From a virus, in the IMG/VR virus record IMGVR_UViG_3300017963_000411, positions 1 to 42,347 of that record: a stretch of 42,347 bases of DNA; one strand, 5' to 3'. The notes under the pieces were generated by a model, which saw only the letters and a list, made by a program, of their open reading frames with translations, did no database searches and had not been told where the DNA came from. Of the stretch, positions 433 to 42,347 are shown piece by piece. The first letter of the stretch is position 1; each line of letters opens with the position of its first letter. Both the position numbers and the translations under genes were made by a program.

Positions 433-451
433 ATTTTAACCCCTTTTCAAT

Positions 452-485
452 AAAAAAGCCCGGGACCTTGTAAGGTCAACCGGGC
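452..485 (-). terminator. Intrinsic terminator upstream of decoration/capsid genes
   Basis: On the minus strand a stem of GCCCGG/CCGGGC (458-463 with 480-485), extended inside by GACCTT/AAGGTC, is followed directly by six T (457-452). It lies only about 10 bases before the SD of the gene starting at 432, so it separates portal/head morphogenesis transcription from decoration/capsid transcription. A second imperfect GC-rich hairpin (494-500 with 505-513) precedes it. Confidence 0.8.
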
Positions 486-620
486 GTTAAACTACCGGGA
501 TGTGTCCCCGGGTTTATGTCGCTTCCTGTTAAGAAATCTAAACAATTTTTTTTAAAAAAGCAAATTATTTCCTCAAAGATTCCTTAACTATTCTTTGCTT
601 CCTTCAAAAATCCCTATTTA

Positions 621-16793: not shown

Positions 16794-17252
16794 TTATTCG
16801 ATTATACCCATTTGTTTTAATTTTTCTGTTTGGATTATTTCGACGACGATTTTGTCTTCGTGTGTCGTTTCAATCAATTTAGGAATCGCCAAGGTATCGG
16901 CCATTAATTGAACCTTGGCCGCCTTCCATGCCGACTGACCGCCGGCCAATGCGTCGCGGGCCATATCTTGCGAACTTCCCTTTCCGCCAAATAAAAATTT
17001 TTTCATTAATCGCGTGTCGACTTTTGTTTTTTTCTTTTTCCCATATTTAACGACCGATTCGCCGCCCATGTACTGAGTTTTGAATTGAACAAGATTTTTT
17101 TCCTTCATGCGTCGGATTAATTCTTCGTCTGCATTTGCCCGGACTTCCCGCAATTGGGCCATTGCGTCCTCAATTTTGCAACGCCATTCGAAAAGTTCGT
17201 CCAGCGTTTCGGACATTTCATATTTGGTATATGGTTCAAGTTCCTTGTGCAT
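16794..17252 (-). CDS. Hypothetical protein of the ERF operon (152 aa)
   Basis: The ATG at 17252 follows the recurrent RBS AAAAAGGGGTTAAG. The N-terminus is helical (TLDELFEWRCKIEDAMAQLR), the middle basic (KYGKKKKTKVDTRLMKKF), and the end hydrophobic-charged (DKIVVEIIQTEKLKQMG). No family is recognised. Cotranscription with ERF, the coiled-coil protein and exonuclease suggests an accessory role in recombination. Confidence 0.65.
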   Translation of the reverse strand: MHKELEPYTKYEMSETLDELFEWRCKIEDAMAQLREVRANADEELIRRMKEKNLVQFKTQYMGGESVVKYGKKKKTKVDTRLMKKFLFGGKGSSQDMARDALAGGQSAWKAAKVQLMADTLAIPKLIETTHEDKIVVEIIQTEKLKQMGIIE

Positions 17253-17264
17253 CTTAACCCCTTT

Positions 17265-18134
17265 TTATTTGTTTAAATTGTCAATAAACATTGATATTGA
17301 TTTTTCAATTTCCTTCGGATTCCGGGCCATTTCCTTAATAACATATTGGATTTGTTCCGCTGTTAAAACGGCGGAATCGATTATTTGTTTTCCTAAAACT
17401 TTTGATACATAGGCGTAAAGCGCGTCGGCGCGGCTGTTTTCTGGAATATTGGCGGCCGCCGGCGTGGTCGTAAATACATTGAAAATACTTTTTAATTGAA
17501 GGTCCCGGACGGTCTGAGGCGATTCTATCTTATTACCTTTATTCTCTGTCGTCTTTGGTTCGATATCCCAAGTCGCGCCGCAACCGCCTTTTCCTTTAAG
17601 ACAATAATATTTCGTCGGGTCCTGTTTGGATATGATAACATATTTCTGTTGATTACATTTCGGACAATCCGGAAATTTCTTTTTACCGCCGTTCGACTTT
17701 GCCGCTGGTCCGCCGTTCCCGGCCCCGGTCGCGTCGTCGTCGGCTTCGGAAGCAACGCCAAGCAAAGCCCCGGCCGCGTATCGGCGCCCGTATGTAATCG
17801 ACGAACCGATCGACTGGACAATATTCTTTGTATCGTCGACGACCGGAAGGCGAAGCGTCGATTTAAGAAATTCCCCGGACGAATGTAATAACAAGGAAAC
17901 GATTATAATATCGTCGTCTGCATGGTCAACGGACTGCGAAAAACAAAGATTGTTCGCCGACAAAATAGGAATAACACCTTGGAACATGGCGCCTAAATCT
18001 GTATAATTATACGAATATGTCGCGCCCGACTTGGTCGTTACATTGACAGTTTTTTCTTTTTTGAAGATCGGGAATTCGGCTTGTGCCTTGGACAAGGCGG
18101 CCGCTATATTTTTAAGTTCCTTTGACGTTTCCAT
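17265..18134 (-). CDS. erf: ERF family single-strand annealing protein with zinc ribbon
   Basis: Residues 1-140 match the ERF superfamily: LSKAQAEFPIFKKEK, YSYNYTDLGAMFQGVIPILS, LLLHSSGEFLKSTLRLP, then GSSITYGRRYAAGALLGVAS and a DDDA motif. ERF proteins bind single-stranded DNA as rings and anneal complementary strands, joining or circularising phage genomes. After a Gly/Lys-rich linker a zinc ribbon appears (CPKCNQQKY ... YYCLKGKGGCGATW), then a helical tail. The ATG at 18134 has AAAAAGGGGTTAAG nearby. It overlaps the preceding small gene by 23 nt. Confidence 0.88.
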   Translation of the reverse strand: METSKELKNIAAALSKAQAEFPIFKKEKTVNVTTKSGATYSYNYTDLGAMFQGVIPILSANNLCFSQSVDHADDDIIIVSLLLHSSGEFLKSTLRLPVVDDTKNIVQSIGSSITYGRRYAAGALLGVASEADDDATGAGNGGPAAKSNGGKKKFPDCPKCNQQKYVIISKQDPTKYYCLKGKGGCGATWDIEPKTTENKGNKIESPQTVRDLQLKSIFNVFTTTPAAANIPENSRADALYAYVSKVLGKQIIDSAVLTAEQIQYVIKEMARNPKEIEKSISMFIDNLNK

Positions 18135-18363
18135 TTCTTAACCCCTTTTTTTTTGCCATTTTCTGTTTATGGATTGCGGCGTCCATGGCTTTATTTATTT
18201 CGGCCATTTCTTCGGGACGTATACAATGTTTACAAATATCGTAAAGCTTTTGAAACTCTTTGTCGCATCCCATTATCGAACCTTGGGCCGTTGACATCTT
18301 CCGGCGACAACGCCGACAATGGATAACCGCGACGGTCATTTGGATTTTTGTTTCTTTCCTCAT
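18112..18363 (-). CDS. Small zinc-finger-like protein (83 aa)
   Basis: The ATG at 18363 overlaps the stop of the upstream gene (ATGA). The protein has VIHCRRCRRKM, then GCDKEFQKLYDICKHCIRPEE, so CxxC pairs that could bind zinc, and a Lys-rich C-terminus overlapping the ERF start. No family is recognised; a nucleic-acid-binding accessory to ERF is plausible from context. Confidence 0.65.
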   Translation of the reverse strand: MRKETKIQMTVAVIHCRRCRRKMSTAQGSIMGCDKEFQKLYDICKHCIRPEEMAEINKAMDAAIHKQKMAKKKGLRNGNVKGT

Positions 18364-18539
18364 TTCTTTTTACCGTTCCGCTTGGCGGTCGCTTCCTTAA
18401 CAATCGTTTTAAATGCGTCAACCTTCCGCCCCTTGAATTCTTCGTCGGCGATTTTATGGAAGCCGTCGAAAACTTCTTTTGCGTCGGATCCGCGCAACTG
18501 GAAAGCGGAAATCGGATAATTTAATTGTGGTTCGGCCAT
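18360..18539 (-). CDS. Small hypothetical protein (59 aa)
   Basis: The ATG at 18539 lies within the end of the upstream gene, with GGGGGTGA about 12 bases before it. It begins MAEPQLNYPISAFQLRG and continues EVFDGFHKIADEEFKGRKV with a basic tail ending KKK. It is probably a soluble helical protein of unknown role. The ATGA overlap with the following gene and gap-free packing support it. Confidence 0.65.
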   Translation of the reverse strand: MAEPQLNYPISAFQLRGSDAKEVFDGFHKIADEEFKGRKVDAFKTIVKEATAKRNGKKK

Positions 18540-18709
18540 AGGATAGATTCACCCCCTGTATATGTACGGTTATCATTCGGATTTTTTTTAATAGGTTCCT
18601 TGGGATCGTCGATCAAAATAGTCTGTTGACATTGCGGACAAAACCCGCGCCGCTTCCCATTGTCGGAACCGATTTCGGCCGCCTTTGACCCGCAAGTCGG
18701 ACAATTCAT
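18521..18709 (-). CDS. Zinc-ribbon protein, first gene after the early promoter (62 aa)
   Basis: The ATG at 18709 has SD AAGGGGGTGA and lies about 40 nt downstream of the predicted transcription start from the 18757-18785 promoter. The protein opens MNCPTCGSKAAEIG and has GFCPQCQQTILI, a clean four-Cys zinc ribbon of about 25 residues, then a disordered tail. Phages often place a small zinc-ribbon protein first in an early operon; this one may modulate host transcription, but that is inference. Confidence 0.72.
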   Translation of the reverse strand: MNCPTCGSKAAEIGSDNGKRRGFCPQCQQTILIDDPKEPIKKNPNDNRTYTGGESILWPNHN

Positions 18710-18756
18710 ATTTTCACCCCCTTTGCGTTAATTAAGTTAATTGATTGCTTTATTTA

Positions 18757-18785
18757 AATATATAATTCAATTATTTAATTGTCAA
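18757..18785 (-). promoter_or_regulatory. Strong sigma70-type promoter, minus strand
   Basis: TTGACA (18785-18780), a 17-bp spacer and TATATT (18762-18757) make a near-consensus sigma70 promoter driving the recombination operon. The spacer contains a perfect inverted repeat CAATTA-AA-TAATTG. A half-site TTGCGTTAA lies downstream at 18723-18731 in the leader. The -35 box is only 7 bp from the -35 box of the divergent plus-strand promoter, so binding of one regulator could affect both. Confidence 0.85.
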
Positions 18786-18792
18786 GCCGGGA

Positions 18793-18821
18793 TTGACAGG
18801 GAAAGCCGTTTCGTTTATATT
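18793..18821 (+). promoter_or_regulatory. Strong sigma70-type promoter, plus strand (sRNA promoter)
   Basis: TTGACA (18793-18798), a 17-bp spacer and TATATT (18816-18821) form a near-consensus promoter on the plus strand, where no protein gene follows. Transcription should begin about 18828 and meet a perfect intrinsic terminator about 85 nt later. It is the only convincing plus-strand transcription signal seen in the window. Confidence 0.82.
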
Positions 18822-18827
18822 GAAAGC

Positions 18828-18921
18828 ATACCTTAACCCTGTATGGTTAATAGCTTTCTTCGGCTGTTAATCCTCAAAAGCAAGGCGCCGGGAAAAGCTA
18901 ACCCGGCGCCTTTGTCTTTTT
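18828..18921 (+). ncRNA. Predicted phage small RNA (about 94 nt), undescribed
   Basis: Bounded by a consensus plus-strand promoter and a perfect terminator, this interval has no sensible plus-strand ORF. The predicted RNA has an unpaired 5' segment (AUACCUUAACCCUGUAU), a stem-loop of GGTTAATAGC (18845-18854) with GCTGTTAATCC (18863-18873) around an 8-nt loop, a short AU-rich spacer, then the terminator hairpin. A competing small hairpin can pair TTAACC (18833-18838) with GGTTAA (18845-18850). The 5' segment is complementary to the recurrent SD/start region of phage mRNAs, best to the gene at 19487-20125. The RNA is also antisense to the 3' end of the gene at 18833-19291. The layout resembles trans-acting antisense regulators; function is inference. 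Confidence 0.7.
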
Positions 18922-19291
18922 CCAATAAAAATTTTTCAATCTGCAATCCAAGCGCGGAGACGGCTTCGACCCGATCCCGGCCGATCACCGACAATTCCTT
19001 CCCGTCCATTTTATCATTATCGGTATTAACCAAAATCGCCCGGATTTCTTCGCCGACGTGTTCAAGAATTGCAATATAATTTTTTCCTTCGTGTTTAAAA
19101 TGGACATTCGGCGCGGCCTGAATTTTTGATTGTTCAAATATTCGGCCGACCAATCCTTCAATTATGGCGATATCGACGTCCAATACTTCCGGTTCTTTAT
19201 GAATCTTTTTTAAATTCGCAAGTCGACGCTTTTTGTCAAAAAGCGCGGATATTACTAATGTTTTTTCCCGATCGTCAAGACGGATAATCAT
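18833..19291 (-). CDS. Hypothetical early protein (152 aa)
   Basis: The ATG at 19291 overlaps the upstream stop (ATGA) and has SD GGGGG. The N-terminal part (MIIRLDDREKTLVISALFDK, LDVDIAIIEGLVGRIFEQ) is helical, the middle beta-rich (KNYIAILEHVGEEIRAIL). The last 25 residues (GLAFPGALLLRINSRRKLL) are encoded by the terminator hairpin and sRNA region, so this tail is probably a by-product of the RNA element. No family is recognised. Confidence 0.65.
   Translation of the reverse strand: MIIRLDDREKTLVISALFDKKRRLANLKKIHKEPEVLDVDIAIIEGLVGRIFEQSKIQAAPNVHFKHEGKNYIAILEHVGEEIRAILVNTDNDKMDGKELSVIGRDRVEAVSALGLQIEKFLLEKDKGAGLAFPGALLLRINSRRKLLTIQG
18883..18921 (+). terminator. Perfect intrinsic terminator (plus strand, possibly bidirectional)
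   Basis: GGCGCCGGG (18883-18891) and CCCGGCGCC (18902-18910) form a 9-bp perfect stem followed on the plus strand by TTTGTCTTTTT. On the minus strand the same stem is followed by TTGCTTTTGAGG, a weaker U tract, so it may also end transcription of the first early operon. It lies inside the last codons of the gene at 18833-19291. Confidence 0.88.
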
Positions 19292-19486: not shown

Positions 19487-20125
19487 TTAAGCCCCTTGGT
19501 CTAAAGGTTCCGTCTGTTCTTCGTTCGGAATTACCTTTATAAGCTTGAACCCCCGGTCCGTCAATCGCTCTAATTCTTCATCGGTTTCGTCCCCTTTAAC
19601 AACATATTCAATGGCCGTCGGCGTGAATACGTGAAAGATTCCGGGGATAAATTCGGGTTCTTCGCCGACAACAAGCGACTTTTGAATCGCTTTTCTGTGA
19701 GCGACGAATACTATTGTTTCGCCGACTTTGAAGTCTTTCGGAATTGCGGATACGCGGCGGGATACTCCCATTTGTAAAGCTTCCCGGGTCCAATCCGCCG
19801 GCGTCGGATAAAATTTTTCGCCGATCCATAGAAGACCGACGCGACCGACCGTCCGGCTTAACGGACAATCGGAACAATCGATCCGAGCGCCCGGGTCCTT
19901 GTGGAATCGACATTCCTTTGACCCGATAATCGCGTCGCCGTCAATCCATGTCCAACCCCGGGACGGCTTAATCCCGGCGTCGCAACAAGGACAACGCGTT
20001 AATTCAATCGGAAGTTTCCCGCAACCCCGGGGAATCCCGAAACTTACCATATACTTACCGCCGCCTTTGCGGTATCCGCAACCGCGTTTATTTTCCGTCC
20101 GTGTTTCAATATTAATATTTGACAT
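19487..20125 (-). CDS. Conserved phage early protein with cysteine clusters (212 aa)
   Basis: The protein shows RGCGYRKGGGKYMVSFG, IPRGCGKLPIELTRCPCCDA, SRGWTWIDG, then CRFHKD and CSDCPLS, followed by LLWIGEKFYPTPADW, SRRVSAIPKDFKVGET and VFVAHRKA. I recognise this pattern from a widespread uncharacterised family of phage early proteins. The Cys pairs suggest one or two zinc sites. Start ATG 20125 lies in GGGGTTAAGGTATG; this SD/start region is perfectly complementary over 13 nt to the plus strand at 18827-18839, the 5' part of the predicted small RNA, so its translation could be a target. Function is unknown. Confidence 0.8.
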   Translation of the reverse strand: MSNINIETRTENKRGCGYRKGGGKYMVSFGIPRGCGKLPIELTRCPCCDAGIKPSRGWTWIDGDAIIGSKECRFHKDPGARIDCSDCPLSRTVGRVGLLWIGEKFYPTPADWTREALQMGVSRRVSAIPKDFKVGETIVFVAHRKAIQKSLVVGEEPEFIPGIFHVFTPTAIEYVVKGDETDEELERLTDRGFKLIKVIPNEEQTEPLDQGA

Positions 20126-20141
20126 ACCTTAACCCCTTTTT

Positions 20142-20334: not shown

Positions 20335-20363
20335 AATATAGTTAATTAATTGCGTTAATGCAA
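20335..20363 (-). promoter_or_regulatory. Early promoter, minus strand
   Basis: TTGCAT (20363-20358), a 17-bp spacer and TATATT (20340-20335) form a good sigma70 promoter for the operon 20309 to 18833. The -10 hexamer and spacer length are identical to those of the 18.76-kb promoters. Confidence 0.78.
20350..20363. promoter_or_regulatory. Candidate operator (TTGCGTTAATGCAA)
   Basis: This 14-bp imperfect palindrome (TTGC...GCAA with central TTAA) covers the -35 box of the early promoter. Its half TTGCGTTAA recurs at 18723-18731 in the leader of the second promoter, again beside TTAATTAA sequences. A shared phage or host regulator is the simplest reading, but no candidate repressor is identified. 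Confidence 0.45.
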
Positions 20364-20552
20364 ATAATTAATTAAGCTATTTTCGACGGGTAAAAATTGC
20401 CTATTTAACGAATTTAACGCCGACCGATTTTAAAGCCCTGTACGGGCCGCGGCCGGCCGGCTGTCATAACTCTTGGACCGGCCCGGGTTCGTGGCGTGGC
20501 GCCCCGTTTCCTGTACGTGGTCCTATGGATTTAAAGGAAATAGCGTTGACGT
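20364..20552. other. GC-rich intergenic region with hairpins, no gene seen
   Basis: The 323-nt gap between the early operon (20309) and the holin gene (20633) holds the early promoter at one end and the late terminator at the other. Between them I see several GC-rich palindromes (GCCC/GGGC near 20434-20446 and runs of GGCC/CCGG) and no credible ORF. The early/late boundary is a place where an origin or packaging site can lie, but nothing here proves either. Confidence 0.5.
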
Positions 20553-41766: not shown

Positions 41767-42347
41767 TTATACTGGTAAATTAATGTCAACCTTGGCGATC
41801 CCCGCGGCGCTTGTGGCTGAACGGAAAACCGCGCTTGGAACAAGGATATTCGGACTTGAAGAACTGTCCGTTAATTTCCCCTTGTTGGCGCCGGCTGTGA
41901 TAAGATAAACGGGCGTATCTATTACGACCGCGTCGGCGACCTCAACCCAAACTTGACCCTTGCGAAGTACGGAAACGGCGTCATTGGCGACGTATCCGGC
42001 GGCTTCAAAAGTCGAAGCGCCGATTGTCGGCAATGTGTTATTTGCAATATGGGAATGAACCGCGATTCCCCGAACCAAGTCAAGACAAGTTCCGACGATC
42101 GAAGATATCGTCATGGTCCCGGTAATCCCTGAAACGTCGACGGTTACGGTCAAATCAACGTCATTGGCCGCAACAATTGTGATTGTATGCGATCCGGCGA
42201 CGTATGCGGCTGTCGATACCGTGGCAAGCGCCTGAATCGACGCGGCAAGCGCGGTCATGGTTGTATTTTTGTCCGTATCGAACGATTCGGTTACGTCTGT
42301 CCCGTTGACGGTTACGACGATATCGCCCGCTGTATAGGTTCCGGCGT
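41767..42347 (-). CDS. Head decoration/cement protein, C-terminal part (runs off right end)
   Basis: The frame is open to the window edge, so the visible part lacks its start. It carries an Ig-like domain (YTAGDIVVTVNGTDVTESFD through HTITIVAANDVDLTVTVDVS) and then a cement-like domain with DLVRGIAVHSHIANNT, NDAVSVLRKGQVWVEVADAV, VIDTPVYLITAGANKGKLTD and VFRSATSAAGIAKVDINL. This C-terminal part resembles capsid structural cement proteins that sit next to the major capsid gene, as here. An internal ATG at 42258 exists but is not a likely start. It is homologous, and probably continuous, with the gene at the left end. Confidence 0.78.
   Translation of the reverse strand, partial: AGTYTAGDIVVTVNGTDVTESFDTDKNTTMTALAASIQALATVSTAAYVAGSHTITIVAANDVDLTVTVDVSGITGTMTISSIVGTCLDLVRGIAVHSHIANNTLPTIGASTFEAAGYVANDAVSVLRKGQVWVEVADAVVIDTPVYLITAGANKGKLTDSSSSPNILVPSAVFRSATSAAGIAKVDINLPV
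42225..42347. repeat. Direct repeat, right copy (partner at 21-143)
   Basis: Bases 42225-42327 are identical to 21-123 and the last 20 bases match with four changes. Both copies encode the same part of an Ig-like domain in the same frame. The downstream (minus-sense) continuation differs between the two copies. Confidence 0.9.

Follow-up and report, generated by a model that had tools for sequence, protein, structure and literature searches.

The locus and its setting

The window analysed here is a virus record of 42,347 bases from a tailed phage with myovirus-like tail genes. Its terminase shares at best 45% identity with those of isolated phages and 56% with those of uncultivated phages. 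No counterpart of the phage's early region was found in these terminase relatives, nor was a close relative of that region found in any collection searched. No repressor or integrase was recognised in this phage. All recognisable genes in the window lie on the minus strand. The first-pass annotation had extended this layout to the whole genome; it holds for the window only, because the sequences repeated near the two window ends (21-123 and 42225-42327) form an imperfect repeat, whose core is identical over 103 bp while its flanks have diverged. A closed circular genome was rejected on the same grounds, and the repeat probably represents neighbouring paralogous capsid-decoration-like genes where assembly stopped.

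The locus of interest, 18793-18921, is flanked on one side by a small minus-strand operon (20309 to 18833) and on the other by the recombination operon, whose first gene is 18521-18709 and which contains the ERF ssDNA-annealing gene 17265-18134. The stretch between the plus-strand promoter described below and gene 18521-18709 (18728-18787) is 85% A+T, tied as the most A+T-rich 60 bp of the window, and holds several inverted repeats; it may represent an origin or a region of UP elements. The leaders of the two early-looking operons (18723-18736 and 20341-20376) have TTGCGTTAAT and GTTAATTAA in common, and GTTAATTAA occurs twice on the plus strand of the window, once in each of these leaders. 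The shared sequence is possibly an operator for a common regulator.

A promoter-terminator unit on the plus strand

The following features were identified at the locus:

18793..18821, plus strand: promoter of the predicted small RNA, TTGACA (18793-18798), 17 bp, TATATT (18816-18821); 11/12 consensus
18757..18785, minus strand: divergent promoter of the recombination operon, TTGACA (18785-18780), 17 bp, TATATT (18762-18757); 11/12
18828..18921, plus strand: predicted small RNA of ~94 nt, its ends inferred from the -10 box spacing and the T-tract end
18845..18872, plus strand: internal hairpin, 11 pairs including three G.U, loop UUCUUC; -10.7 kcal/mol
18882..18921, plus strand: intrinsic terminator, 11-bp perfect stem, 9-nt loop and T tract; d = 20.1
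18833..18901, minus strand: tail of ORF 18833-19291, non-coding-like by codon score and antisense to the small RNA

The near-consensus plus-strand promoter was present as the first-pass annotation had described it, and it is the only promoter of at least 11/12 on the plus strand of the window, scored against a consensus that may not be that of the host. The claimed back-to-back arrangement with the promoter of the recombination operon was also found, with 7 bp between the two -35 boxes. Transcription would be expected to start at A18828, 7 nt past the -10 box. At the other end of the unit, the perfect 9-bp GC stem and T tract noted earlier are extended by two A-T pairs, so that the arms (18882-18892 and 18902-18912) form nine GC pairs plus two A-T pairs and the T tract TTTGTCTTTTT occupies 18911-18921. 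This is the sole strong terminator on the plus strand (d'Aubenton d = 20.1; the other plus-strand match has d = 2.7). A promoter of at least 11/12 followed within 300 nt by a terminator of d at least 10 occurs once on the two strands of the window, here, and simulated order-2 Markov strands that keep the window's trinucleotide statistics carried such a unit in 5 of 1562 cases (0.3%; 0.003 per strand).

The predicted RNA folds with -36.8 kcal/mol (z = -5.25 versus shuffles). Its first 17 nt are predicted to be unpaired, with a mean unpaired probability of 0.92 across the first 13, in agreement with the single-stranded 5' end that had been proposed; the internal stem-loop that had been placed at 18845-18873 was recovered at 18845-18872. 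The hairpin is strand-specific, at -10.7 kcal/mol on the plus strand versus -2.3 on the minus strand, because its three G.U pairs turn into mismatches on the minus strand. Such an asymmetry is the trace expected of a plus-strand RNA gene. Sequence statistics give good support to the proposal of a separate plus-strand small RNA that has a promoter and a terminator to itself. No Rfam family matched the RNA at the gathering threshold, which agrees with the earlier remark that it belonged to no recognised class. Sub-threshold matches to MIR530 and sraL were far under the cut-off and at chance level, the sraL match lying on the minus strand and aligning largely via the GGCGCC terminator stem.

The same palindrome allows a reading in which there is no functional RNA: it would be a bidirectional terminator of the minus operon 20309-18833, and the plus-strand promoter would be incidental or would block or tune opposing RNA polymerase. 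The palindrome does lie at the end of that operon, where it scores as a weak minus-strand terminator. However, d is 2.6 in this direction versus 20.1 on the plus strand, the plus-strand tail is much better (T score 3.70 versus 2.64), and both the plus-only hairpin and the placed seed match described below require separate explanations. We regard this reading as unlikely.

The first-pass annotation had stated that the interval contains no ORF, which does not hold in the literal sense. The minus-strand ORF 18833-19291 (152 aa) spans it, and a plus-strand ORF of 78 codons (18843-19079) also runs through it. The codon score of the minus-strand ORF is normal to about codon 130, then drops to -0.08 and then to -0.67, and amounts to 0.53 when the last 26 codons are left out. 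Its tail falls at the 0.9 percentile of in-frame windows, and the last ~22 codons are non-coding-like. Given this loss of coding character, the last stretch is probably an accidental open frame or a relaxed tail, and its DNA has likely been shaped by the small RNA. The 152-aa product has no match in Pfam, PHROGs or NCBIfam.

It is very improbable that the plus-strand transcript is instead a short mRNA for ORF 18843-19079. An ATG at 18843 does open a frame, but the ORF has no SD, its start codon would lie ~15 nt from the 5' end, the terminator that it crosses interrupts it, and the gene to which it runs antisense has a normal coding signal for most of its length. A peptide from this ORF was accordingly judged unlikely.

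Complementarity to a translation start

The 5' end of the predicted RNA directed attention to the following sites:

18827..18839, plus strand: seed CATACCTTAACCC, a perfect 13-nt antisense to the SD-AUG of gene 19487-20125
20123..20135, minus strand: predicted main target site GGGTTAAGGTATG, from the SD to the start codon of gene 19487-20125
19487..20125, minus strand: predicted main target gene, encoding a 212-aa Cys-rich phage protein
18137..18145, minus strand: weaker predicted site GGGGTTAAG, SD of the ERF gene 17265-18134; -13.5, net -11.1 kcal/mol
17253..17261, minus strand: weaker predicted site GGGGTTAAG, SD of gene 16794-17252; -13.5, net -10.0 kcal/mol

The start of gene 19487-20125, ~1.3 kb from the RNA gene, was the best partner of the seed among the phage TIRs tested; the first-pass annotation had not noted this complementarity. 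The hybrid is calculated at -20.1 kcal/mol, or -16.9 net of opening costs (0.3 kcal/mol for the seed and 2.9 for the target), and both sites are accessible. Within the window the 13-mer is restricted to the seed and the target site, and the match ends at 18827, a single base away from the predicted start of transcription at 18828. For a 17-nt seed, the chance of matching any SD-AUG core over 13 nt or more is ~0.0006, uncorrected for searching. The observed match gave P values of 0.003 versus shuffled seeds, 0.007 versus GC-matched genomic segments and 0.04 versus all genomic 17-mers, a set dominated by GC-rich ones. These target statistics are post hoc and four RNA segments were tried; we take them as suggestive to good, not conclusive. 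Neither the middle linker nor the terminator loop had significant targets (P = 0.45 and 0.63), and the whole RNA, unmasked, had none either (P = 0.20). The flanks of the two 13-mers are dissimilar (P = 0.6 and 0.3), and a duplicated gene start as the origin of the match was rejected for this reason.

The target site overlaps a repeated element. An SD cassette, AAAAAGGGGTTAAG, precedes three genes: 16794-17252 (cassette at 17253-17261), the ERF gene (18137-18145) and 19487-20125 (20126-20141). The three cassettes share 14-16 nt and are outliers among 2080 TIR pairs, the others sharing at most 12. A shorter version stands ahead of the gene starting at 432. The leader of that gene (433-620, minus strand) contains the hairpin CCGGGGACACATCCCGG and then the strongest terminator of the window (stem ends at 458, d = 30.0), which directly precedes the SD of the same cassette (AAAAGGGGTTAA); it looks like an attenuator or antitermination leader ahead of capsid genes.

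The seed covers 8-9 nt of the SD at the ERF gene and at 16794-17252, and its pairing with the gene at 432 is calculated at net -4.3 kcal/mol. The number of such weak partner sites is unremarkable (P = 0.11-0.16), and further targets are therefore hypothetical. We are doubtful of the wider scheme in which one 5' seed would recognise the repeated GGGGTTAAG cassette before several early recombination and DNA-metabolism genes while the RNA is titrated by read-through of the main-target operon. If true, an RBS cassette shared by co-regulated genes would be the landing pad for the phage's own RNA, which would be a new layout.

Reuse of the cassette also offers a neutral origin for the 13-nt match. 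The minus strand at 18839-18827 could be the leftover RBS of a lost gene (GGGTTAAGGTATG, then a 4-codon ORF, MLSI), and an RNA from the opposite strand would then be complementary to similar RBSs without selection. The SD-ATG spacing of this minus-strand copy is plausible. However, the A run and the fourth G that mark the cassettes are missing from the copy, its flanks resemble the target start only as much as shuffled sequences do, and the match runs out just at the predicted 5' end of the RNA. This origin seems to us quite improbable.

A further possibility is that the plus-strand RNA is real and acts only in cis, in the manner of lambda OOP, and that the seed match to 19487-20125 is luck. 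Full-length pairing with the 3' end of the minus operon (ORF 18833-19291) would then lower the mRNA, by double-strand cleavage or through RNA polymerase collision. The locus has the OOP layout, antisense to the 3' end of the upstream gene with the promoter in the following gap, and the overlap with ORF 18833-19291 is exact by construction. Action in cis has no need of an unpaired 5' seed, however, and it leaves the 13-nt match to an SD-AUG to coincidence; moreover, the overlapped stretch is non-coding-like and lies mostly beyond the weak minus-strand terminator. Here too the balance of the evidence makes the reading an unlikely one.

Relatives of the predicted target protein were found at 60 loci (51 viral and 9 bacterial; L032-L091), with identities of 29-58%. 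Cys and Gly positions are conserved across this family, which has no match in Pfam, NCBIfam or PHROGs. The protein is modelled with a pLDDT of 92; a structure search returned no solved relative and one model, that of an uncharacterised protein from the archaeal virus Haloarcula hispanica tailed virus 1. Because the neighbours of the homologues in other phages are DNA-metabolism genes (helicases, exonucleases, replication initiators, an SSB and SbcC-like proteins), an early role in DNA metabolism is likely, by association only. No synteny with the present locus was found among the homologues, and ~50 homologous target genes had no comparable antisense TIR copy within ~5 kb. One longer copy (18 nt, locus L040) does not include the start codon.

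Searches with other parts of the locus were likewise negative. Proteins 18833-19291, 17265-18134, 16794-17252 and 18112-18363 gave no match in the viral contigs searched, and 18833-19291 gave none in bacterial genomes; against phages it gave weak staphylococcal matches only (E = 0.5-0.9), and the locus DNA gave no match. A search for the hairpin pattern matched two contigs, in one of which the hit is a chance match to a GTTAA-rich repeat. As none of the collections searched yielded a relative of the locus, neither conservation nor covariation lends the RNA support.

A proposed antisense regulator and its known counterparts

We tentatively favour the interpretation that 18793-18921 is a small-RNA gene whose seed pairs across the translation start of 19487-20125, from SD to start codon, and so keeps ribosomes from binding. 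As judged from sequence, the RNA is most likely an antisense sRNA that represses translation of early DNA-metabolism genes. The plus-strand promoter would initiate the RNA at ~A18828 and the terminator would end it near 18921, giving a molecule whose 5' seed is single-stranded and is followed by a middle hairpin and then by a U-tailed terminator hairpin. On the 19487-20125 mRNA, a duplex of 12-13 nt over the SD and start codon would block ribosome binding and lower translation, and the ERF gene and 16794-17252 would perhaps be damped too, by weaker pairing (8-9 nt) of the same seed. Since the divergent promoters would yield the RNA and the recombination operon together, the RNA may serve as a brake. 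Because the RNA gene is antisense to the 3' end of the main-target operon, read-through of operon 20309-18833 would produce a complement of the RNA that could sequester or remove it.

This kind of regulator is known; judged by the collections searched, the RNA and its target are new. To our knowledge, only a small number of phage small RNAs have a target assigned to them, and most of these come from temperate phages that infect a handful of model hosts. In the present case the sequence by itself yields a candidate RNA together with its predicted 5' end, its seed and a specified target site. If true, the proposal would place early recombination genes under RNA control in a phage with no recognised repressor or integrase, and would give the first regulatory handle on a nameless protein family found in dozens of phages.

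Several known RNAs invite comparison. The P1 c4 and P4 CI immunity RNAs lie on the same strand as the operon that they control and arise by processing of its leader. The RNA described here resembles them as a phage RNA antisense to phage sequences, but it lies on the opposite strand with a promoter and terminator of its own, and the P1/P4-type likeness drawn in the first-pass annotation is therefore not supported. Unlike that of type I toxin-antitoxin RNAs, the predicted target is no small hydrophobic toxin but a 212-aa Cys-rich protein that is predicted to be well folded. P22 sar is encoded opposite its own target site, whereas here the target site lies elsewhere (20123-20135); moreover, no ant/arc-like gene was recognised and the target has no ant-like family match. 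Sar is a small antisense RNA that interferes with translation initiation of a phage gene (PMC12197685). The present RNA likewise matches a phage translation start in antisense, over 13 nt from the SD to the AUG of 19487-20125.

Trans-acting sRNAs have a 5' seed, a hairpin and a U-tailed terminator, and act through short seed pairing. The predicted RNA shares with this class, as read from its sequence, the 5' seed, the hairpin and the Rho-independent terminator with U tail. Lambda PreS and VP882 VpdS use Hfq, and the target of PreS is a host gene (PMC12197685), whereas the only target found here is a gene of the phage itself. Lambda OOP acts on cII via antisense pairing and RNase III (PMC3985674). 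As with OOP (PMC3985674, PMC12197685), the locus would encode a short opposite-strand RNA that is started and ended by signals of its own, covers the 3' end of the upstream gene in antisense and adjoins the replication/recombination block. The RNA differs from OOP in that its best predicted target is a start site ~1.3 kb away, reached via a 13-nt seed, and the overlapped gene is not cII but a 152-aa ORF with no family match; having no Rfam match, it is not an OOP member by homology. The RNA belongs to no named family and, by analogy, would combine an OOP-like layout with a sar-like action and the anatomy of a trans-acting sRNA.
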